Below are positions 33,645 to 63,801 of a stretch of 64,000 nt of DNA, one piece after another. Under the pieces are notes generated by a model. That model ran no database searches and was not told where the DNA came from. It was given only the letters and a program-made list of their open reading frames with translations. The stretch is from the NCBI RefSeq assembly GCF_000004195.4, contig NC_030684.2, positions 71,407,392 to 71,471,391 of the forward strand. Reading direction: 5' to 3'. The number at the start of each line of letters is the position of its first letter. The first letter of the stretch is position 1. This stretch comes from Xenopus tropicalis (lineage: Eukaryota > Chordata > Amphibia > Anura > Pipidae). The position numbers and the translations under genes were made by a program.

Positions 33645-35092
33645 TGTCGGGCTAATTCTGCGTATATCTAAAAGAATTCAAGGCTCCTTATTAGTAACAG
33701 GAGGAGTCTTAAATAATATATGCCCAACTCTGAATTCGATATCGAGCGTTCCCAATCAATTGGTATAAAGGTGAAAAATCATGACAATTATTTAATAAAA
33801 TAATTAATTTATTTAAATACGAATATTACAAAAATGAAATTATTACTTAACACTCCCTGATATCTATCTAATAATTAATCAAAATGAACATTGACCAATA
33901 GACATTATTCAATAAATGGCAAGCATCCACAAGATAATATATGTACGTTCACTTTCAATACTTAATAACAAGGTAATTAAATATGTTGAATCAAAGGAAG
34001 GGTAAATGATTGATCTTGAAGTCTTAAGGAATTCTATCTTTAAATGTTCTTATTTCCCCATTAGATTGTTAACTTGGATATCATATATCTATACTAATGA
34101 AAAATAAAATGGACCCAAATTAAACAGATTATTCCCAGTTTGCAACTCTGGGAAAGTCAATGTTTAGGGTAAGACTATAATATACATAGGAATAATAAAT
34201 ATCCAAGCATACAACTTAATCGAGAAAAAGTATAACAAAATGTATATTTACCAGAGTAGAGTTTTCTTATAGTTGAGAATAGTTTCTCCTTCCTCTTCCA
34301 GTTTTTAGATCCCCTTAGATTTTCTTTTTCAGGTTCTTTCTTTTAGATCCCTCTTTCTTTTTTTCTTAGTCCTTAGTCCTTTCTTTTTTTTTCTAGTCCT
34401 CTTGTCTCCTAACTTATCCCTCATCTCTATCTAAAACTCCACCTCTGGGATTTATCAACTAGCCAACTGGCATCAAAGGGTAGTCTTTAAGTTAAACTAT
34501 CACCAGTTGATTTAAATATTTATTACAGTGACCTTTGGACCCGTAATGTCCTCCACCATCTGTGGATGTCACTGTTTCCTCAATATTGTGGTCTGAAAAT
34601 ATTCAGAAAATATAAAATAACTTTTGACCTTCCTTAATTCGATGTTACACACTATTGTTGACATTGCTCCACACTAGAACAATGCTGTGTAACTACTTAA
34701 TACCTTAGTACACATACAATATATGTCATTGGTCTGTCCTTGATTAATTATTACCCTCTCAACAGGTGTGCTCTATATTGTGGAGAGTTTGTAAGATCCT
34801 TCAAGGTGTTCTCATCTTGTTCACCTAGACACCAAGGATTATATAACCTTTGATATTTGCTTTAACACAAAGGTTATACATCTGGGCTAGTAATCCGATA
34901 CAAACCTCCTTTTCAACATATACGTTTCTGATCAACTAAACAAAATAACATTCATTATTTATTCCTATATGATTCATCAAAAAGCATAATATCATTCATG
35001 AATATATATTCTATTAAGTAACATAATCACGTTATCATTAACAAATCAGAATATTCTTGTAATTAATAATTATCTTATCTGAAAATCCGACA
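33645..35092 (-). repeat. ERV 3' LTR (left copy)
   Basis: 1,448 bp, TGTCGG...CCGACA, followed inward by the purine tract. Near-identical to 39,960-41,407. Confidence 0.95.
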
Positions 35093-35158: not shown

Positions 35159-35512
35159 TCAAACTCTTCCTTCATCATACTCATTATGTAAACTTGATCG
35201 GCGAGATTTAAGCCATAGTTTATCTAGAGTCTTTTTGATGATCTTCATCCAACGAATTGCTAAGATGGTGATTACAGTTAACCATCCTACTATAATTGTG
35301 ATCAATATACTCCTTATATAGTTTTCCCCCCATGACCTAACAGAAGGAAACAGTATTTCGTCATCGGTTGGTGAAAATTGTGGAGTATCCATGGTGATAT
35401 TATGTTTTTTTATAACCATACGGATGGTATGGCTGGGCTTATTGTCCAACAAAAATTTTAAATCCGGACTTATGGTAATCTCCTGATTTTGGAATGCATC
35501 AATGCTTTCCAC
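35159..35512 (-). pseudogene. ERV env, transmembrane-subunit C-terminal piece
   Basis: A 117-residue open frame with a hydrophobic span (SILITIIVGWLTVITILAI, about residues 68-86) followed by a basic cytoplasmic tail. This fits the membrane anchor and tail of a retroviral envelope TM subunit. It lies in a different frame from the preceding env piece, and the ectodomain between fusion peptide and anchor is mostly missing (no heptad-repeat or CX6CC block seen), so no functional envelope is made. Confidence 0.7.
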
Positions 35513-35528
35513 CTCTCCTTCAGTGTCC

Positions 35529-35975
35529 TCAATGTTTACAGGATATGGAATTAGCGATTGTTACTCCGGTTGCAAACACGTTTCCTATTACTGCAAAGAT
35601 TATAGCAGCAACAATAGCAGAAATGAACCGTTTTGGTCTTTGGTTTGACGAAAAAGGCTCTCTGATTAAAGTTTTCCGGGTTTGCTCCAGGATTTGAGTA
35701 ATCCGCTTTTGTGAATATTCAATATGCAGCTGGTACCAGGTTTGAATCTCCGGTGATCGAATATTGGATTCGTTGACTTGTCTTTCGATGACACAACGTG
35801 GATCTAGGCTCATATAAATCTTCTGGGACAAGATTCTCTTGTTGGTCATGATGAATCCCGCTGTATCCTGTAGCATGATCCCGGATGATGGACCCGGCAT
35901 CACAATCCGCTCAGCGTGTAACTCTTTCCCCAAGATCAGGACTGCATATAAAATAGCGATCATCTTGGATGGCAT
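35529..35975 (-). pseudogene. ERV env, N-terminal piece with furin site and fusion peptide
   Basis: 148 residues. A signal-peptide-like start (residues 1-21) is followed by only about 90 residues, then a furin-type RPKR (113-116) and a hydrophobic run (117-140) of fusion-peptide character. A retroviral surface subunit is usually several hundred residues, so most of it is deleted while the processing junction is kept. The frame closes soon after and the rest of env continues in another frame at 35,512. Described as a relic; no function is implied. Confidence 0.75.
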
Positions 35976-36168: not shown

Positions 36169-36372
36169 TCAGCTCTCGACTTGCTCTATTCTCCGAAGCT
36201 GTTGGCTAGGATGACAAACACCTAATTGGTTAATGTGCACCCATTTTTCAACAAAATCATCCCCCTTAGGAATTTTAACTTTATAAACCACAGGAGATAA
36301 TTTATCAGTGATTATATAGGGACCTTTCCGGCGACTAAGATATCCACTGCATAGGGTATTTGTTGTCCCCAT
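36169..36372 (-). pseudogene. ERV integrase C-terminal remnant (GPY/F-type)
   Basis: 67 residues with RRKGPYIITDKLSPVVYKVK and KWVHINQL, the GPY/F-type C-terminal motif of integrases. No RT, RNase H, zinc-binding HHCC or DDE core precedes it. Its start overlaps the end of the protease frame by 61 bp, so the internal deletion joint lies at about 36,340-36,375. Confidence 0.75.
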
Positions 36373-37772
36373 CTCAAGGCTTGTTCTTTATCCTGGAATT
36401 CCTCTGGATTCCCTGATAGTCTGGACCACAAAACATTATTGATCAAATCAACCTGTATGGCAAATCGATGTATAATGTCATTTCCTAAATACATTTGATG
36501 TTGCGGTTCCTTTAACACATTGAAAACGTGTTCCGCAGATTTGTTTCCTAGGAAGATAGATAAAATGCATTTTGCAATCACATTTTGACTCTGGTCGTCT
36601 TTGTCCAGGTCATAAACCCATTCCTGTAAGGAAGAAAATTTAATCATCTGAGGATTTGTAACCTGCTTTAGAAGTCCTAAACTTATATAGCTGACTTCGG
36701 ATTTGAGATCCAGCTTGGCATATTTCACCCGGGCAATATTATTTACCTGTACGGGAACCAGCATAGTATCATTGGTCTTCTCGATTTTAACCAATGATTG
36801 GATATGTCTGGTTATGCCTGCTACTTCCCGATTTCCCCCTTTAAGAGAAATGGTTAACACATCATCCTCTAGGATTATCTTTTCAATTTTGTCCTTTTGG
36901 ATATTAATGATGTGGAAGGAAGTATTAATGCTTTCTTCAGGTTTACTGTTTTTTAGGATTGAGACATCTGGTACCTGACTGTTCCGGAAATGGATTTCGA
37001 CAGAATTAGGTCTTTCTTCAATCATATGGCAACTATTTTGCGGTTTTGCATTGTGGGAACGTTCAAAAGAGATTGGGGTTTTTACCTGAGTCCATATTGC
37101 TTCATTAATAAAGTCAATTATGGATCTTAACCTTTTGAGCAGATCAATTCCAATGATCAGCCGATCATATGGAAGATCTACAATCAATGTTGGATGTCTA
37201 ATGGTCTTTTTACCAATCTTATATGTCAGCCAGGACTTGCCTTTCACTTGTAGACTATCACCACCTACACTTACCAGAGATCCATCAAATACCGTCAATC
37301 TCGGTTTATTCTTTGAGGACTCTAAGATCTGTTGGAAATAGCTGGAAGACAAAATAGTGACCTGAGATCCGGTATCCAATAAACCTTGGATTGGTCCGAC
37401 ACATCCATCCTGAAGACAAATATCTATAAAATACCGGCCATCTAACTGTAAGAGATTACAGAGGAAATTGGAGTGTTTTATCATCTGTTGATTTAAAAAG
37501 TGATCTCTCTGCAGCGTCAGGATATTTGGAGATTGCTCCTCCTTGTTCTGTCTGCAGGGCATTTGTGTTCCTATGGACTCTATTAATGGAACAGACTGAA
37601 CCGAAGGTACTTCACACACTGGTTCAAATAACACCGGATTATAAGAATTGTCCTTATTAGGCTGTAAAACAGATGAAATATTAGATTTTCCCTTCCCGGC
37701 CCTGAATTCAGGGTCTGGGCAATGCAAAACATGATCATTGACTGTATTTAATTCTTTCCTGTCCATTTCCAT
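36312..37772 (-). CDS. ERV protease frame with two retropepsin-like domains
   Basis: 486 residues, intact, in a different frame from gag and starting 24 bp after the gag stop. Residues about 115-228 form a retropepsin: active-site GLLDTGSQVTIL (DTG at 133-135) and the later ILG-type block LIIGIDLLKRL, ending in DFINEAIW. A linker of about 100 residues follows. Residues about 335-451 repeat the same layout: a strand, AKLDLKSEVSYISLGLL at 352-368 where DTG should be, FLGNKSAEHVF, and MYLGNDIIHRF, ending in DLINNVLW. The second copy lacks the catalytic Asp-Thr-Gly, so it looks like a degenerate partner. Retropepsins act as dimers that cut Gag and Gag-Pol. The frame ends at the deletion joint, so its natural C-terminus would have run into RT. 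The duplication is my reading from motif layout. Confidence 0.7.
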   Translation of the reverse strand: MEMDRKELNTVNDHVLHCPDPEFRAGKGKSNISSVLQPNKDNSYNPVLFEPVCEVPSVQSVPLIESIGTQMPCRQNKEEQSPNILTLQRDHFLNQQMIKHSNFLCNLLQLDGRYFIDICLQDGCVGPIQGLLDTGSQVTILSSSYFQQILESSKNKPRLTVFDGSLVSVGGDSLQVKGKSWLTYKIGKKTIRHPTLIVDLPYDRLIIGIDLLKRLRSIIDFINEAIWTQVKTPISFERSHNAKPQNSCHMIEERPNSVEIHFRNSQVPDVSILKNSKPEESINTSFHIINIQKDKIEKIILEDDVLTISLKGGNREVAGITRHIQSLVKIEKTNDTMLVPVQVNNIARVKYAKLDLKSEVSYISLGLLKQVTNPQMIKFSSLQEWVYDLDKDDQSQNVIAKCILSIFLGNKSAEHVFNVLKEPQHQMYLGNDIIHRFAIQVDLINNVLWSRLSGNPEEFQDKEQALRWGQQIPYAVDILVAGKVPI

Positions 37773-37795: not shown

Positions 37796-39847
37796 TTATT
37801 TGGCAGAGCTTGGCCCCGCTTTTTCCTCTAAAAAAACTTCAGGTTGTTTTCCTGCAGAAACTTGAGATAATTTACTTACAATGTCAGTTAACTTGGAAAC
37901 CTGATCTGCAAGCTGATCAAATCTGCTAGGTCTACCTGGGTTTTGATTCTGTGGACCATTTTGATTCCCTGTGGGTGATTTACCCCTGGGTGAATCTGGT
38001 GATTCCTGCCCTTTTCTCCATTGCTGCCTGGGCCTATTGTTCCAACGTTTGTATCCCTGGGGATCCCGATATCCTTGGTAACCCCCATATCTTTGGTTAC
38101 CTCGGTATCCATGGTAACCCCCATATCTTTGGTTACCTCGGTATCCTTGGCTTCCTTGGTTGAAACGAGGACAGTAACCTTGGCTTCCAGAACCTGAACT
38201 ATTTCCTTCTGACCCCTTGGCAATTTGAGGTTTAGTTTGTCTGGGATTTAGCTGTTTTTGGTTTTGTTGATTAGGCTCAGTGGCTGGAGGTATTTTCTTT
38301 GGCTGGGACTCAAAATTTAAATGAGGTTTTACCCCGGACTCATCAACATTGTGCTCTGGGAATTTTTTAAATTTCCTATCATTTAAGTTTTGGCCCTCAC
38401 TAATGTTAAACAGCAAAGTTGCTGATGTTACCAGTCTTTCTAGAGGGTTTTCAAAATCCAAATCATGAGCTAGACTTAATTTGATTTGGATTGGTAAGGC
38501 CTCATAGAATACCTGTTTAAATTCCACAGATTCCCAATCGGGGTTTCTGTAAGCTAAACCATAGGCATTTTTAAGTACAGAGAGAAATTCTCGAGGGCTT
38601 TGATTAGATCTACATGTGAGTTTATAAATTTCTCTCTTTGCGGCAGTGGTAGTTCGATAGGGCCCAAATTCTGATTTAATTTCATGTAGGACTGACTGCC
38701 ATTTGGTGATTCCTCTCTCTTTAAAGGAGGAAAAGTAATGACGGTATCTGTCATCAAAGGCCCATGGAAGAAACCTGATTTTGTCTGCCTCAGATAATTT
38801 TAATGAATCCATAGTAGATTCATATAGTTCTAAGTGGTTTGCAATTTGGGAAGAACCTTTCTTAGAAAATTTTGGTATAGCAGTATTTAAAAATTTAATT
38901 ATGCTGGCAGAATTTTGTTTTTCTTTTGGAGATTGGGGATTTTTCCCTTTTGAACCCCTCTTATGGGTATTCTTCCCCCTGTTTGGGAAAGGACCGGATC
39001 CCCATGCTCTCTCATCACTCTCAACTTCACTTGCATCAGTATTGGAAACACTACTTCTATGGGATACATTTGACATAGGTGTTTGATTTCGCACATTCAT
39101 CACATTCCTCTCTGGGGATGTGTCTGAAGAAGAATCTCTAAGAACCCTTGTTCTGTGATTACCTATTAAGGTGGTCACAGCTTGGCATGCTTCAGCCAAC
39201 CGGCCCAAAACATCTTGTGCCTCTGAATCAACATTATCAATTGGTTTGGCTCTAGAAATATATGGTGCCCAATTTTTATATTGGGGAGTGATTATTGGAG
39301 GATCAGGAGATCTCTCCACACCATATACACCTGACTGTTGACTTTTAATGTGCTGTTGCTGTAATTCTTCGAAATCCTTTCTGAGCTTACAGTATGCTAT
39401 GCGACTACGTTCAGCATCAGTTTCTAAATCCCTAATAAAAGCTTCCTTGTTTGAGATATCTATCTCTAATTGGTTTTTATCAGATTTCATATGTTGGATA
39501 TCTGATTCTATCTCATGTAACTGAGACCTCAATTTTTCTACATTTTCTTTTCTAGCTTTTGATAGGGTATCTACCTCCATTAATGCATATAAAACAGGAG
39601 GTAGGGCACATATTAATTTTTTCTCTTTGTCTGAACTGTTAGAGGCTAAGTTCATACATGTTAAATAGCGTTCAACCAGGCCGTCTGTTGCCCAGATATC
39701 ATTAAGGTCTGCTCTAGCATTTCTCTTCAAATCATTAATCCAAACATCCATCCCTATATCAAATTTTACCCGTGTATATATGAATTCAACAATTCTGTGG
39801 ATCATTTGCTCTGGGGTATTCCCATTCTCACTGCTTGCAACACTCAT
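37796..39847 (-). CDS. ERV Gag polyprotein, intact, 683 aa
   Basis: The start is 113 bp after the LTR edge and the frame is uninterrupted. Residues about 92-168 are a charged heptad-rich coiled coil. Residues about 240-310 are a Ser- and basic-rich linker. Residues about 312-482 resemble a retroviral capsid (SIIKFLNTAIPKFS to LERLVTSATLLF). Residues 555-612 are rich in Gly, Tyr, Arg and Asn with imperfect repeats of GYRGNQRYGGYHG, and there is no CCHC zinc knuckle, so RNA binding probably uses this basic tail. Residues 643-662 form a short C-terminal heptad segment. A coiled-coil N-terminus with Gly/Arg-rich tail recalls spumavirus Gag in layout, but homology is not shown. Confidence 0.85.
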   Translation of the reverse strand: MSVASSENGNTPEQMIHRIVEFIYTRVKFDIGMDVWINDLKRNARADLNDIWATDGLVERYLTCMNLASNSSDKEKKLICALPPVLYALMEVDTLSKARKENVEKLRSQLHEIESDIQHMKSDKNQLEIDISNKEAFIRDLETDAERSRIAYCKLRKDFEELQQQHIKSQQSGVYGVERSPDPPIITPQYKNWAPYISRAKPIDNVDSEAQDVLGRLAEACQAVTTLIGNHRTRVLRDSSSDTSPERNVMNVRNQTPMSNVSHRSSVSNTDASEVESDERAWGSGPFPNRGKNTHKRGSKGKNPQSPKEKQNSASIIKFLNTAIPKFSKKGSSQIANHLELYESTMDSLKLSEADKIRFLPWAFDDRYRHYFSSFKERGITKWQSVLHEIKSEFGPYRTTTAAKREIYKLTCRSNQSPREFLSVLKNAYGLAYRNPDWESVEFKQVFYEALPIQIKLSLAHDLDFENPLERLVTSATLLFNISEGQNLNDRKFKKFPEHNVDESGVKPHLNFESQPKKIPPATEPNQQNQKQLNPRQTKPQIAKGSEGNSSGSGSQGYCPRFNQGSQGYRGNQRYGGYHGYRGNQRYGGYQGYRDPQGYKRWNNRPRQQWRKGQESPDSPRGKSPTGNQNGPQNQNPGRPSRFDQLADQVSKLTDIVSKLSQVSAGKQPEVFLEEKAGPSSAK

Positions 39848-39935: not shown

Positions 39936-39953
39936 ATCTCAGCAGTGCCTCCA
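39936..39953 (-). other. Candidate primer-binding site, tRNA-Thr-like
   Basis: TGGAGGCACTGCTGAGAT on the minus strand, six bases inside the 5' LTR. From memory of vertebrate tRNA-Thr 3' ends it would match 16 of 18 bases; other tRNAs fit less well. Confidence 0.55.
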
Positions 39954-39959
39954 AATATA

Positions 39960-41407
39960 TGTCGGGCTAATTCTGCGTATATCTAAAAGAATTCAAGGCT
40001 CCTTATTAGTAACAGGAGGAGTCTTAAATAATATATGCCCAACTCTGAATTCGATATCGAGCGTTCCCAATCAATTGGTATAAAGGTGAAAAATCATGAC
40101 AATTATTTAATAAAATAATTAATTTATTTAAATACGAATATTACAAAAATGAAATTATTACTTAACACTCCCTGATATCTATCTAATAATTAATCAAAAT
40201 GAACATTGACCAATAGACATTATTCAATAAATGGCAAGCATCCACAAGATAATATATGTACGCTCACTTTCAATACTTAATAACAAGGTAATTAAATATG
40301 TTGAATCAAAGGAAGGGTAAATGATTGATCTTGAAGTCTTAAGGAATTCTATCTTTAAATGTTCTTATTTCCCCATTAGATTGTTAACTTGGATATCATA
40401 TATCTATACTAATGAAAAATAAAATGGACCCAAATTAAACAGATTATTCCCAGTTTGCAACTCTGGGAAAGTCAATGTTTAGGGTAAGACTATAATATAC
40501 ATAGGAATAATAAATATCCAAGCATACAACTTAATCGAGAAAAAGTATAACAAAATGTATATTTACCAGAGTAGAGTTTTCTTATAGTTGAGAATAGTTT
40601 CTCCTTCCTCTTCCAGTTTTTAGATCCCCTTAGATTTTCTTTTTCAGGTTCTTTCTTTTAGATCCCTCTTTCTTTTTTTCTTAGTCCTTAGTCCTTTCTT
40701 TTTTTTTCTAGTCCTCTTGTCTCCTAACTTATCCCTCATCTCTATCTAAAACTCCACCTCTGGGATTTATCAACTAGCCAACTGGCATCAAAGGGTAGTC
40801 TTTAAGTTAAACTATCACCAGTTGATTTAAATATTTATTACAGTGACCTTTGGACCCGTAATGTCCTCCACCATCTGTGGATGTCACTGTTTCCTCAATA
40901 TTGTGGTCTGAAAATATTCAGAAAATATAAAATAACTTTTGACCTTCCTTAATTCGATGTTACACACTATTGTTGACATTGCTCCACACTAGAACAATGC
41001 TGTGTAACTACTTAATACCTTAGTACACATACAATATATGTCATTGGTCTGTCCTTGATTAATTATTACCCTCTCAACAGGTATGCTCTATATTGTGGAG
41101 AGTTTGTAAGATCCTTCAAGGTGTTCTCATCTTGTTCACCTAGACACCAAGGATTATATAACCTTTGATATTTGCTTTAACACAAAGGTTATACATCTGG
41201 GCTAGTAATCCGATACAAACCTCCTTTTCAACATATACGTTTCTGATCAACTAAACAAAATAACATTCATTATTTATTCCTATATGATTCATCAAAAAGC
41301 ATAATATCATTCATGAATATATATTCTATTAAGTAACATAATCACGTTATCATTAACAAATCAGAATATTCTTGTAATTAATAATTATCTTATCTGAAAA
41401 TCCGACA
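39960..41407 (-). repeat. ERV 5' LTR (right copy)
   Basis: 1,448 bp, near-identical to 33,645-35,092. On the minus strand this is the promoter-bearing LTR. Confidence 0.95.
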
Positions 41408-46721: not shown

Positions 46722-47490
46722 TTATTTAAACGATCCAACTGCAGTTAAACCTTGGTGGTAATTTTTGATCAGTCCTGCACATCGACTTGGAGGAATTTTA
46801 GCCCTTTCCTCTGTACAGAACAGCTTCAGCTCATGAACTGCTCGCTTTAGGTCTTTCCACAACATTTCAACTGGATTAAGGTCAAGACTTTGACTTGGCC
46901 TTTCCAGAACATTTACTTTATAGCTTTTTAACCATTCTTTGGTAGAAGGACTTGTGTGTTTAGGATTATTGTGTGGCTGCATGGCCCACTGTCTCTTGAC
47001 ATTCAGTTCACAGACAGATATCATGACATTTTCCTTTAGAATTCTCTGGTATAGTTCAGAATTCACTGTTCCATTAATAATGACAAGCTGTCCAGGCTCA
47101 TATGCAGCAAAACAAAAAAACATTCCCACCACCATGTTTCACAGATGCAATAAGGTTCTTATGCTGGAATGCAGTGTTTTTCTTTCTCTTCCAGTATCCT
47201 TCTGGTTTGTCCACATGATCTTTAGCAAACTGTAGATGGTCAGAAATATTTTTGGGGGAGAGCAGTGGCTTTCTCCTTGCTACCCTGTCATACACACCAT
47301 TGCTGTTCAGTGTTCTCCTGATGATGGACTCATGAACATCAGCATTCACCAATGTGAGACAGGCCTTCAGTTGCTTAGAAGTTATCCTGTGTTTCTTTGT
47401 AACCTCTCGGACTGTTAGACGCCTTGCAGTTGGAGTTATCTTTGTTGGTCCACCACTTCTGGGTAGTAGATGCCTGCATCATTGTCTGAT
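46722..47490 (-). pseudogene. Dead Tc1-like transposase
   Basis: Three parts in order on the minus strand: a DNA-binding segment (ITPTARRLTVREVTKKHRIT), then DHLQFAKDHVDKPEGYW, then the catalytic half with KHTSPSTKEWLKSYKV, SQSLDLNPVEMLW and WKDLKRAVHE. The block between GYW and KKNTAFQHKN, which holds the first catalytic Asp in the family, is deleted, and the second Asp (usual NDPKH) reads NNPKH. The final Glu in NPVE is kept. A stop or shift also separates the halves near 47,100. It cannot be active. Confidence 0.88.
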
Positions 47491-51212: not shown

Positions 51213-51687
51213 TGTGTTACTACACTTGATTAAGTCTAGGAAGTGCCAAGTCTGAATAATACTATACACACGTCATAGCTTTTATTTTCATTCAGACATG
51301 GATGGATAAACCACTATCAGCTGTGCTTGAAGTAATGATTAGCTCACAATCACACAGATTTACCCACCTCCCCTCATAATGGCTGAGGCTGTTTTTAATG
51401 CTGAACAAAGAGCCTGTTGGCTGCAGCCTAATGGCATATCCCACTCTGGTTATTAATATTGGGAAACATGTGAAAAATACAAAGCTGGGTTTAGTTTTCA
51501 TGAAAGCATGTCCTTGTGAAATGTAAATAAGTATATGTTGCAAGATCTTCTTGTTATCTTGTTATTGCTTTATACAGCTTGCATAATGTAGAACTAAGCA
51601 GTAGAGAAACATTCCCTGTAAACTTTTATTTTAAAAGAACTTCATGATTTTAAAACACCTTTTATGTTACTTTTACAGGAATCCAGA

Positions 51688-52623
51688 ATGTTTGGTTCTG
51701 CAAGAAAAATGTGGTTCATTGTCCTACTATATATGTTCTATGATCCAAGTACGGCTCAGAATAGTGTCTTTGGAAAAAATAAATACACTGAGTACCAAAT
51801 CGGAAACATGAACTTGATTATTACTGTTCCCCATGGAGGATCATTACAGCCAAGCTCTATACCGTCAAGAGATTCTGGCTGCTGGGATAAGGTGACCTCA
51901 AAATGTTACTACACACACAGTTGCCCATCAGGAACATCAAAGGACTCAACCAGTTGTACAGTTTCCACAGTCAAAGATCTGTATACACTAGAAACTGCAC
52001 AGGCCCTGGCAAAAGAGATCAGTATACTAACTGGTGGCAAATACCCTCATATTATCATAAATCACCTTTCAAGATCCAAATTGGACGTTAACAGAGATAA
52101 GGATGAGGCAGCCTTTGGAATTCCTGAAGCAGAGCAAGCCTTTGATGAGTTTATGGAGTTCATTAACATGGCAAAGTCACAAATACAAAAGGGCCTACTT
52201 ATTGACATCCATGGACAGGCTCATCCTGAGCAGTGGATTGAATTAGGCTATCTTCTTTCTAAGGCAAATTTAGACTCAGGTGCTTTTACTGCAGCTAGTA
52301 CTTCAATATTCTCATTATCTAAAGAGCTTTACAATACCCCATTTGAAACATTGCTCAGAGGTGAGAAGAGTTTGGGAAAATATATTCAAGATCAAAATCC
52401 CAAATATGTCTGTGTCCCTTCTCCAACAAATCTAGGACCCAATGGGGGAAACTATTTTTCAGGAGGTTATATTGTCAAAACCCATGGGTCCAAAGATAAC
52501 GGTACTGTAGATGCAGTTCAAATTGAGCTTCCTAGGTGGATAAGGGAAAGCAGTGAGCGCCCCACATTTTGTGTGGCTTTAGCAAAGGCAATATCGAAGT
52601 TTCATCAGTTAAGTTTTAATTGA
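51688..52623 (+). CDS. Secreted N-formylglutamate-amidohydrolase-like protein
   Basis: An intact 311-residue protein in one coding exon. A pyrimidine-rich acceptor (TTACTTTTACAG) ends at 51,678, so a non-coding exon lies upstream; I start at the first ATG after it (51,688), though 51,709 is also possible. The N-terminus is a signal peptide (MWFIVLLYMFYDPSTAQ). Blocks typical of the family follow: NLIITVPHGG (about 45-55), SRSKLDVNRD, LLIDIHGQAHPEQ, GGNYFSGGYIVKTHG and DAVQIELPRWIR, with His, Asp and Glu residues that could bind a metal. Bacterial relatives release formate from N-formylglutamate in histidine breakdown. Animal secreted forms of this fold exist in invertebrates as far as I recall, with unknown substrates. 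Several Cys (CWDKVTSKCYYTHSC) suit an extracellular protein. A poly(A) signal lies at 53,313. Substrate is not predictable. Confidence 0.8.
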   Translation: MFGSARKMWFIVLLYMFYDPSTAQNSVFGKNKYTEYQIGNMNLIITVPHGGSLQPSSIPSRDSGCWDKVTSKCYYTHSCPSGTSKDSTSCTVSTVKDLYTLETAQALAKEISILTGGKYPHIIINHLSRSKLDVNRDKDEAAFGIPEAEQAFDEFMEFINMAKSQIQKGLLIDIHGQAHPEQWIELGYLLSKANLDSGAFTAASTSIFSLSKELYNTPFETLLRGEKSLGKYIQDQNPKYVCVPSPTNLGPNGGNYFSGGYIVKTHGSKDNGTVDAVQIELPRWIRESSERPTFCVALAKAISKFHQLSFN

Positions 52624-62771: not shown

Positions 62772-63801
62772 TAGTTACATAGTTACATAGTTACATAGGG
62801 TTGAAAAAAGACCATTGTCCATCAAGTTCAACCCATCCGAGTAAACCCAGCACACAACCTATACTAACCAATCTATACACTCACATACATAAACTATATA
62901 TACAACCACTAGTACTAACTGTAGATATTAGTATCACAATAGCCTTGGATATTCTGATTGATCAAGAACTCATCCAGGCCCCTCTTAAAGGCATTAACAG
63001 AGTCTGCCATTACCACATCACTAGGAAGGGCATTCCCCAACCTCACTGCCCTCACCGTGAAAAACCACCTACGCTGCTTCAAATGGAAGCTCTGTTCCTC
63101 TAATCTAAAGGGGTGGCCTCTGGTGCGCTGATTGTTTTTATGGGAAAAAAGAACATCCCCCATCTGCCTATAATCCCCTCTAATGTACTTGTACAGAGTA
63201 ATCATGTCCCCTCGCAAGCGCCTCTTTTCCAGAGAAAACAACCCCAACCTCGACAGTCTCACCTCATAGTTTAAATCTTCCATCCCCTTTACCAGTTTAG
63301 TTGCACGTCTCTGTACTCTCTCCAGCTCATTAATATCCTTCTTAAGGACTGGAGCCCAAAACTGCACCGCATACTCAAGGTGAGGCCTTACCAGGGACCT
63401 ATAAAGAGGCAAAAATATGTTCTCATCCCTTGAGTCAATGCCCTTTTTTTATACAAGACAGGACTTTATTTGCTTTAGTAGCCACAGAATGACACTGCCT
63501 GGAATTAGACAACTTGTTATCTACAAAAACCCCTAGATCCTTCTCCATTAAGGATACCCCCAACACACTACCATTCAGTAGATAGTTTGCGTTTATATTA
63601 TTTCTACCAAAGTGCATAACTTTGCACTTGTCAACATTGAACCTCATTTTCCAGTTTGCTGCCCAGTTTTCCAATTTTGTTAAACCGCTCTGCAAAGCGG
63701 CAGCATCCTGCATGGAACTTATAGTTTTGCACAATTTAGTGTCATCAGCAAAAATAGAAACATTACTCTCTATGCCCACCTCCAGGTCATTAATAAACAA
63801 G
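62772..63801 (-). mobile_element. CR1/L2-type LINE, 5'-truncated 3' part
   Basis: Minus strand. The upstream piece (63,800-63,435) contains the RT catalytic block SIFADDTKL and the following MHFGRNN and KDLGVFVDNKL blocks. The downstream piece (63,412-62,915) continues with LYRSLVRPHLEYAVQFW and RVQRRATKLVKG, typical of CR1-group C-termini. A one-base shift in an A-rich run near 63,430-63,455 separates them. The 3' end is three tandem units of ATGTAACT-type sequence (62,773-62,800), the usual CR1/L2 tail. The 5' side stops at a T2-MITE. Confidence 0.9.

Follow-up and report, generated by a model that had tools for sequence, protein, structure and literature searches.

Pepsin has a single flap, and members of family A1 combine two homologous halves per chain, with an aspartate in each half and the glycine flap in the N-terminal half only. 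ASPRV1 is a host protein with a single dimerising protease domain. Foamy viruses possess one protease (PR) directly before the reverse transcriptase (RT), and they express Pol from a separate spliced mRNA. Another host protein, DDI, is likewise described as having a single dimerising protease domain (PMC2642776; papers are cited by PMC identifier). It is generally assumed that the pepsins arose when a retropepsin-like half was duplicated and fused, and the direction of this step has been debated (PMC2642776, PMC2761423). Here we describe a stretch of 64,000 nucleotides from Xenopus tropicalis (contig NC_030684.2, positions 71,407,392 to 71,471,391 of the forward strand; hereafter the window) which harbours a recently inserted provirus whose protease open reading frame (ORF) encodes two homologous retropepsin-type domains in tandem. 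The first domain, PR1, looks like a normal retropepsin, and the second, PR2, has a non-canonical active-site loop that is fixed among its frog relatives.

The whole pro ORF of 486 codons, taken from the ORF list, occupies positions 36312..37772 of the window on the minus strand. An original prediction, made from the letters of the window alone, had placed two retropepsin-type blocks in this one frame, and the blocks quoted there are indeed present, in halves that are homologous (local alignment score 79; hhalign E 1.4e-7). PR1 (residues ~100–235; 37068..37475, minus strand) is recognized by the Pfam family RVP with an E-value of 2.3e-5 over residues 121–216 (25 bits; cut-off 20.7), and matches ASPRV1 in the PDB with an E-value of 3.5e-4. 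It carries the DTG active-site triplet at residues 133–135 (37368..37376, minus strand, read from the sequence and the aligned rows), the flap SVGGD and the hydrophobic-hydrophobic-Gly motif LIIG. By these motifs PR1 is a normal retropepsin of the A2 type. The linker that follows (residues 236–317; 36822..37067, minus strand) is less conserved than both domains and matches no Pfam family above the cut-off. PR2 (residues ~318–460; 36393..36821, minus strand) is recognized by its homology to PR1.

Protein database searches returned 13 homologues (P0001–P0013), all of them frog gene models, of which some are truncated or contain predicted introns. In the aligned rows D355 of PR2 stands opposite the catalytic D133 of PR1, the T and G of the triplet being replaced by L and K. 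This DLK triplet (residues 355–357; 36702..36710, minus strand) is present in the window and in 11 of the 11 homologues that span the site (P0001–P0007 and P0009–P0012), P0008 and P0013 not extending over it. At the corresponding site of PR1, P0010 has DTR and P0011 an alignment gap. PR2 does not have the D-T/S-G triplet of A2-type retropepsins, nor does it have flap glycines, with DLDKDDQSQ where PR1 has SVGGD. It retains the hydrophobic-Gly block (MYLG vs. LIIG in PR1) and the C-terminal block (DLINNVLW vs. DFINEAIW). The original prediction was right that the second half has no DTG, and the active site is non-canonical, but the aspartate is still there (D355-L-K). The description of PR2 as a dead half, which was a conjecture, needs correction because this aspartate is kept in all 11 homologues covering the site, with TG replaced by fixed L and K.

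The alignment score of PR1 and PR2 compares with a mean of 28.3 (sd 4.6) over 2000 shuffles, none of which scored as high, and 20,000 shuffles yield a Gumbel estimate of 4.2e-7. In this alignment, which the original prediction had proposed as a check, the halves correspond block by block, far above shuffles, at an identity of ~26–29%. BLASTP gives an E-value of 1e-6, covering the last 58 aligned residues only, and the profile-profile comparison by hhalign reports a probability of 94 over 97 columns. Four PR1 sequences (window, P0001 from Bufo, P0002 from Gastrophryne and P0008 from Leptobrachium) were compared with three of PR2 (window, P0001 and P0002), and each of the 12 pairings beat all of its 20,000 shuffles (Gumbel p from 3.0e-6 to 9.2e-12). 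Within single proteins the PR1/PR2 score is reached by 0 of 2000 shuffles in P0001, P0002 and P0009. Seven control pairs, namely N-terminus/PR2, PR1/linker and five gag pieces/PR2, remain at chance level. The shuffles and the control pairs rule out chance or composition as the source of the similarity. Judged by sequence, PR2 is homologous to a retropepsin domain and two homologous halves lie in one chain, as in bilobed pepsin-like proteases. The frog protein thereby shares with pepsin family A1 the paired halves, the glycine flap in the N-terminal half only and the aspartate in each half. It differs in its second loop, which is DLK, so that a canonical active-site loop is not contributed by both lobes.

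Six of the homologues come from Xenopus laevis, four from Gastrophryne carolinensis, two from Bufo gargarizans and one from Leptobrachium leishanense, and the order PR1–linker–PR2 is found in these four anuran genera, in Leptobrachium only in part. No relative turned up in one scan of viral contigs. Eight of the 13 homologues (P0001–P0006, P0009 and P0012) have a complete or nearly complete PR2, P0003–P0006 missing its first ~24 residues at a jump in the gene model. PR2 is partial in five: cut after the first part in P0007, P0010 and P0011, represented by its end only in P0013 and by a piece in P0008. Frog relatives, the search for which had been suggested in the original prediction, keep the segment rather than lacking it. 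Between the window and P0001 from Bufo, identical residues number 31/97 in the N-terminus, 102/136 in PR1, 51/82 in the linker and 98/143 in PR2. Over four rows picked for an unbroken PR2 (the window, P0001, P0002 and P0009), the identical columns are 80 of 136 in PR1, 34 of 82 in the linker and 84 of 143 in PR2. By these comparisons PR2 is held as tightly as PR1, and more so than the linker or the N-terminus. The Leptobrachium model P0008 is named as a carbohydrate deacetylase (YdjC domain) and has the PR1 region on its C-terminal side; this is probably a gene-prediction join and possibly an exonisation.

In P0004 from Gastrophryne, PR1 and PR2 are followed by an RVT_1 match and YVDD. P0012 from X. 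laevis contains gag, PR1, PR2, RT, RT_RNaseH_2, RNase_H and a weak integrase match below the cut-off, while P0013 has RT_RNaseH_2 after its PR2 remnant. Since RT follows PR2 in P0004 and P0012, PR2 belongs to pol-bearing elements. The RT stretch of P0004 finds its best PDB match in a foamy virus PR-RT (7kse, E 1.1e-15), for which reason we call the lineage spuma-like; the label comes from this best match of a relative, the window copy having no RT. The Gag is also reminiscent of foamy viruses, having no zinc knuckle among its Pfam matches and a basic, Gly-rich C-terminal part. In contrast to the single foamy PR directly before RT, the frog element has a linker and PR2 (~225 residues) after PR1. 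In P0004, whose gene model in addition leaves out part of the linker and of PR2, 467 residues separate DTG from the RT motif DLRQLN.

We propose that the retropepsin of a spuma-like frog retrovirus underwent an in-frame duplication before the viral lineages of several frog genera split. PR1 would have remained the catalytic-type half, and PR2, as its sequence and conservation show, has lost the canonical TG and the glycine flap while retaining the aspartate together with the hydrophobic-Gly and C-terminal blocks. PR2 may then pack in cis against PR1 via the former dimer interface, so that a single chain would form an asymmetric pseudo-dimer in which one glycine flap is combined with two active-site loops that differ from each other. 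In such a chain PR2 would either provide or restrain the dimerisation on which ordinary retropepsins depend. We favour cis packing, be it activating or restraining, because the aspartate loop is fixed, there is one glycine flap, an asymmetry shared with pepsin, and the RT of the relatives is foamy-like; the proteases of foamy viruses have an unusual interface without the usual terminal strands (PMC7072860). This is a tentative reading, which we would place just short of evenly balanced. A bolder version of cis packing is rather doubtful, namely that a frog retroviral lineage independently took the step proposed for the origin of pepsins. A half-protease that works as a homodimer would then have been duplicated in tandem and fused into a working asymmetric single-chain enzyme with one flap, a canonical loop and a DLK loop, in which the two aspartates would still be shared.

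Several observations weigh against the proposal. PR2 alone has no Pfam protease match, and the four PDB matches of its profile up to E 10, all of them DDI1-type retropepsins, are individually weak (E 0.038–0.09). These E-values say little on their own, because a search with the linker gave unrelated internalins at E 0.037 and 0.2. Two AlphaFold models are both poor, with a mean pLDDT of 36 and 38; in the first, a low-confidence model, retropepsin structures match mainly on PR1, and the second, of PR2 only (38), gives no meaningful structure match. Within P0012 the PR1/PR2 score is only 36 and is equalled by 84 of 2000 shuffles; the PR1 of this protein is without the stretch between the flap and the hydrophobic-Gly block. 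Within PR2, conservation over 14 residues peaks around the DLK loop, the top eight windows all beginning at residues 350–357, but column permutation gives this peak a p of 0.09, which is not significant. A lysine in place of the active-site glycine is expected to interfere with a functional active site, and PR1 could form ordinary homodimers without PR2. Finally, PR2 is truncated in the gene models P0007, P0008, P0010, P0011 and P0013.

Given the missing Pfam match, the lack of a confident PR2 model and PDB profile E-values near 0.05, one might suppose that PR2 is not a retropepsin and that its block similarity is accidental or stems from another fold. This appears extremely improbable, as 12 of 12 PR1/PR2 comparisons, within and between species, beat all their shuffles and the PDB matches of PR2 are retropepsins without exception. 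The absence of the canonical active-site and flap motifs, together with the 5 of 13 gene models that have PR2 only in part, would also suit a decaying duplicate without function that is carried by chance, an explanation we find very improbable since PR2 is as conserved as PR1 in the Xenopus, Bufo and Gastrophryne rows (84/143 vs. 80/136), unlike a sequence in neutral decay. A more serious competitor to cis packing is that PR1 functions as a homodimer of the ordinary kind, with PR2 as a pseudo-protease that acts as a spacer or tether between PR and RT or as a module that binds Gag, RNA or a host protein. PR1 has the motifs expected of an active retropepsin, PR2 has lost TG and the flap glycines, and it sits between PR1 and RT. 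There is also a parallel in the retroviral RNase H, another pol enzyme domain that is doubled, with one copy degenerate yet kept: the old RNase H of retroviruses degenerated and stayed on as a tether, a new one having been acquired (PMC9040795, PMC12440569). In the frog element, by contrast, the similarity points to duplication of the protease. However, the aspartate and the surrounding loop are fixed in 11 of 11 homologues covering them, which a pure spacer would not need; we regard this explanation as quite possible, although on the doubtful side.

The remaining rival concerns the source of PR2, which could have been captured from another retroelement by recombination instead of arising from PR1, and it is compatible with either mechanism. 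With an identity between PR1 and PR2 as low as that given above, a separate ancient source is conceivable. Eight other retropepsin loci of the X. tropicalis genome (L001–L008) were considered, seven of which are readable in an open frame and represent about four kinds. In direct alignments PR1 resembles the near-identical L003 and L004 at p 7e-6, L007 at 5e-4 and L008 at 8e-4, whereas none of the seven readable loci resembles PR2, be it from the window, P0001 or P0002 (smallest p 0.04); tblastn of the pro ORF against all eight gave no match. Although this sampling is thin, capture seems improbable to us. The closest relative of PR2 among the compared sequences is PR1, which fits duplication inside the lineage. 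The sequences thus fit an old in-frame retropepsin duplication that would be older than the divergence of the viral lineages present today in Xenopus, Bufo and Gastrophryne. As a separate observation, the X. tropicalis genome contains at least 68 RVP matches (150 of 337 candidates scored), located on ten contigs, and several lie in open frames of 1463–1516 codons with identical scores. Since these long open frames share identical RVP scores, the genome is likely to contain other young retroelement families.

Gag and Pro-Pol are probably joined by a −1 frameshift. The gag ORF (683 aa; 37796..39847, minus strand) lies upstream of the pro ORF, which is in the −1 frame relative to gag and open across the heptamer T_TTT_TTA. 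This candidate site is in the gag frame at 37829..37835 (minus strand), ~30 nt before the gag stop, and is a heptamer of the HIV-1 type; four further slippery-type heptamers occur upstream in the gag frame. By its position, −1 frameshifting is likely. A hairpin after T_TTT_TTA has a z of −2.93 against mononucleotide shuffles for 50 nt and of −1.75 to −0.86 for longer stretches, and it is not stronger than dinucleotide shuffles (70 nt, z −0.01). The site remains a candidate because the hairpin is not unusual against the latter. The different frames of gag and pro, with a candidate −1 frameshift site, set the element apart from foamy viruses, and a −1 frameshift together with the foamy-like RT of the relatives would constitute a mixed set of traits.

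The provirus is bounded by long terminal repeats (LTRs) of 1448 bp each, both TGTCGG...CCGACA, the 5′ LTR at 39960..41407 and the 3′ LTR at 33645..35092 (minus strand). Their outer ends are flanked by a 4-bp target duplication, ATAT. We call the window copy a recent insertion because its LTRs differ at 2 of 1448 sites, and it is defective. A candidate primer-binding site at 39936..39953 (minus strand) is presumably tRNA-Thr-like. The gag product contains a coiled coil and a basic Gly/Arg/Tyr-rich C-terminal part, matches Retrotrans_gag weakly, below the Pfam cut-off, and shares 76% identity with P0010 from X. laevis across 660 columns. A stretch at 36169..36321 (minus strand), beyond the probable pol deletion and in another frame than pro, was labelled by eye as resembling the C-terminal end of an integrase and is unmatched among the 13 homologues. 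The 5′ part of env (35529..35975, minus strand) has a signal-peptide-like start and an RPKR furin-like site before a hydrophobic stretch, and shares 89–95% identity with the tails of P0011 and P0010. The 3′ part (35159..35533, minus strand) is in a different frame and includes a membrane-anchor-like segment. The env pieces match no env family and were labelled by eye from their ends.

With the pro ORF ending at 36312 and env beginning at 35975, the window copy has lost RT and RNase H together with most of integrase. The X. laevis proteins P0012 and P0013 run on past the point that matches the stop at 36312, and for this reason the stop is most likely the joint of an internal pol deletion in the window copy. 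This copy was presumably mobilised by the proteins of another element. By its traits, i.e., LTRs, gag and env as recognized by eye, with a second RNase H beside RT in the relatives, the element is to be classed with the Retroviridae.

XtERV-S is a class III endogenous retrovirus (ERV) of X. tropicalis with a serine tRNA primer site and a 5-bp target duplication (PMC8278194). The window element resembles it as a recent Xenopus insertion with a pol on the spuma/ERV-L side and no zinc knuckle, and differs in the 4-bp ATAT duplication and the sequence of its primer site. An identity of the two was rejected, as neither a tRNA-Ser primer site nor a 5-bp duplication is found in the window element. 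A table in the same paper places the DTG of XtERV-S at 44–46 and the RT motif at 211, and this spacing of 167 is so short that there is no room for PR2. OVEX1, considered as a possible precedent for a doubled protease, was not borne out as such, its protease lying at ~583–686 and its RT starting at 767 (PMC2717909). No such tandem arrangement is mentioned in the accessible parts of papers on crocodilian ERV4 (PMC4299795), on Kuafuortervirus and Troyka (PMC11673190, PMC12440569) or on frog LTR elements (PMC4131045). Among the top-ranked matches for several topics in titles and abstract beginnings of open-licence PMC papers, no tandem retropepsin is described in a retrovirus or LTR element; subscription journals and Repbase lie outside this range, and an annotated family may exist. 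Within the same range, nothing contradicts the statement of the original prediction that no standard retroviral genus is described in this way. Among host proteins there is a likeness to ASPRV1, which PR1 matches, and to DDI1/DDI2, the PR2 profile weakly matching DDI1-type chains.

The window contains further elements at a distance from the provirus. Between 3939 and 7893 (minus strand) ORFs match, in order, LAP2alpha (E 1.8e-12), RVT_1 (E 4.3e-23) and Phage_integrase (E 2.5e-5, below the cut-off), which we take, by this set of domains, to be the remains of a DIRS-type element. A short ORF at 46722–47135 (minus strand) with a DDE_3 endonuclease match just below the cut-off (E 3.6e-6) is probably a piece of a DNA transposon. 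Another retroelement is represented near the window edge by an ORF at 63435–63800 (minus strand) with an RVT_1 match just below the cut-off (E 1.3e-6). Lastly, a 319-aa ORF at 51664–52623 (plus strand) gives a weak FGase match below the cut-off (E 5.7e-4).

A conserved tandem retropepsin with a diverging second half offers a direct case for studying an origin of the pepsin type. If our proposal of cis packing is true, the frog element would represent another retroviral route to the control of protease dimerisation, which is relevant given the unusual interface of the foamy virus proteases (PMC7072860).
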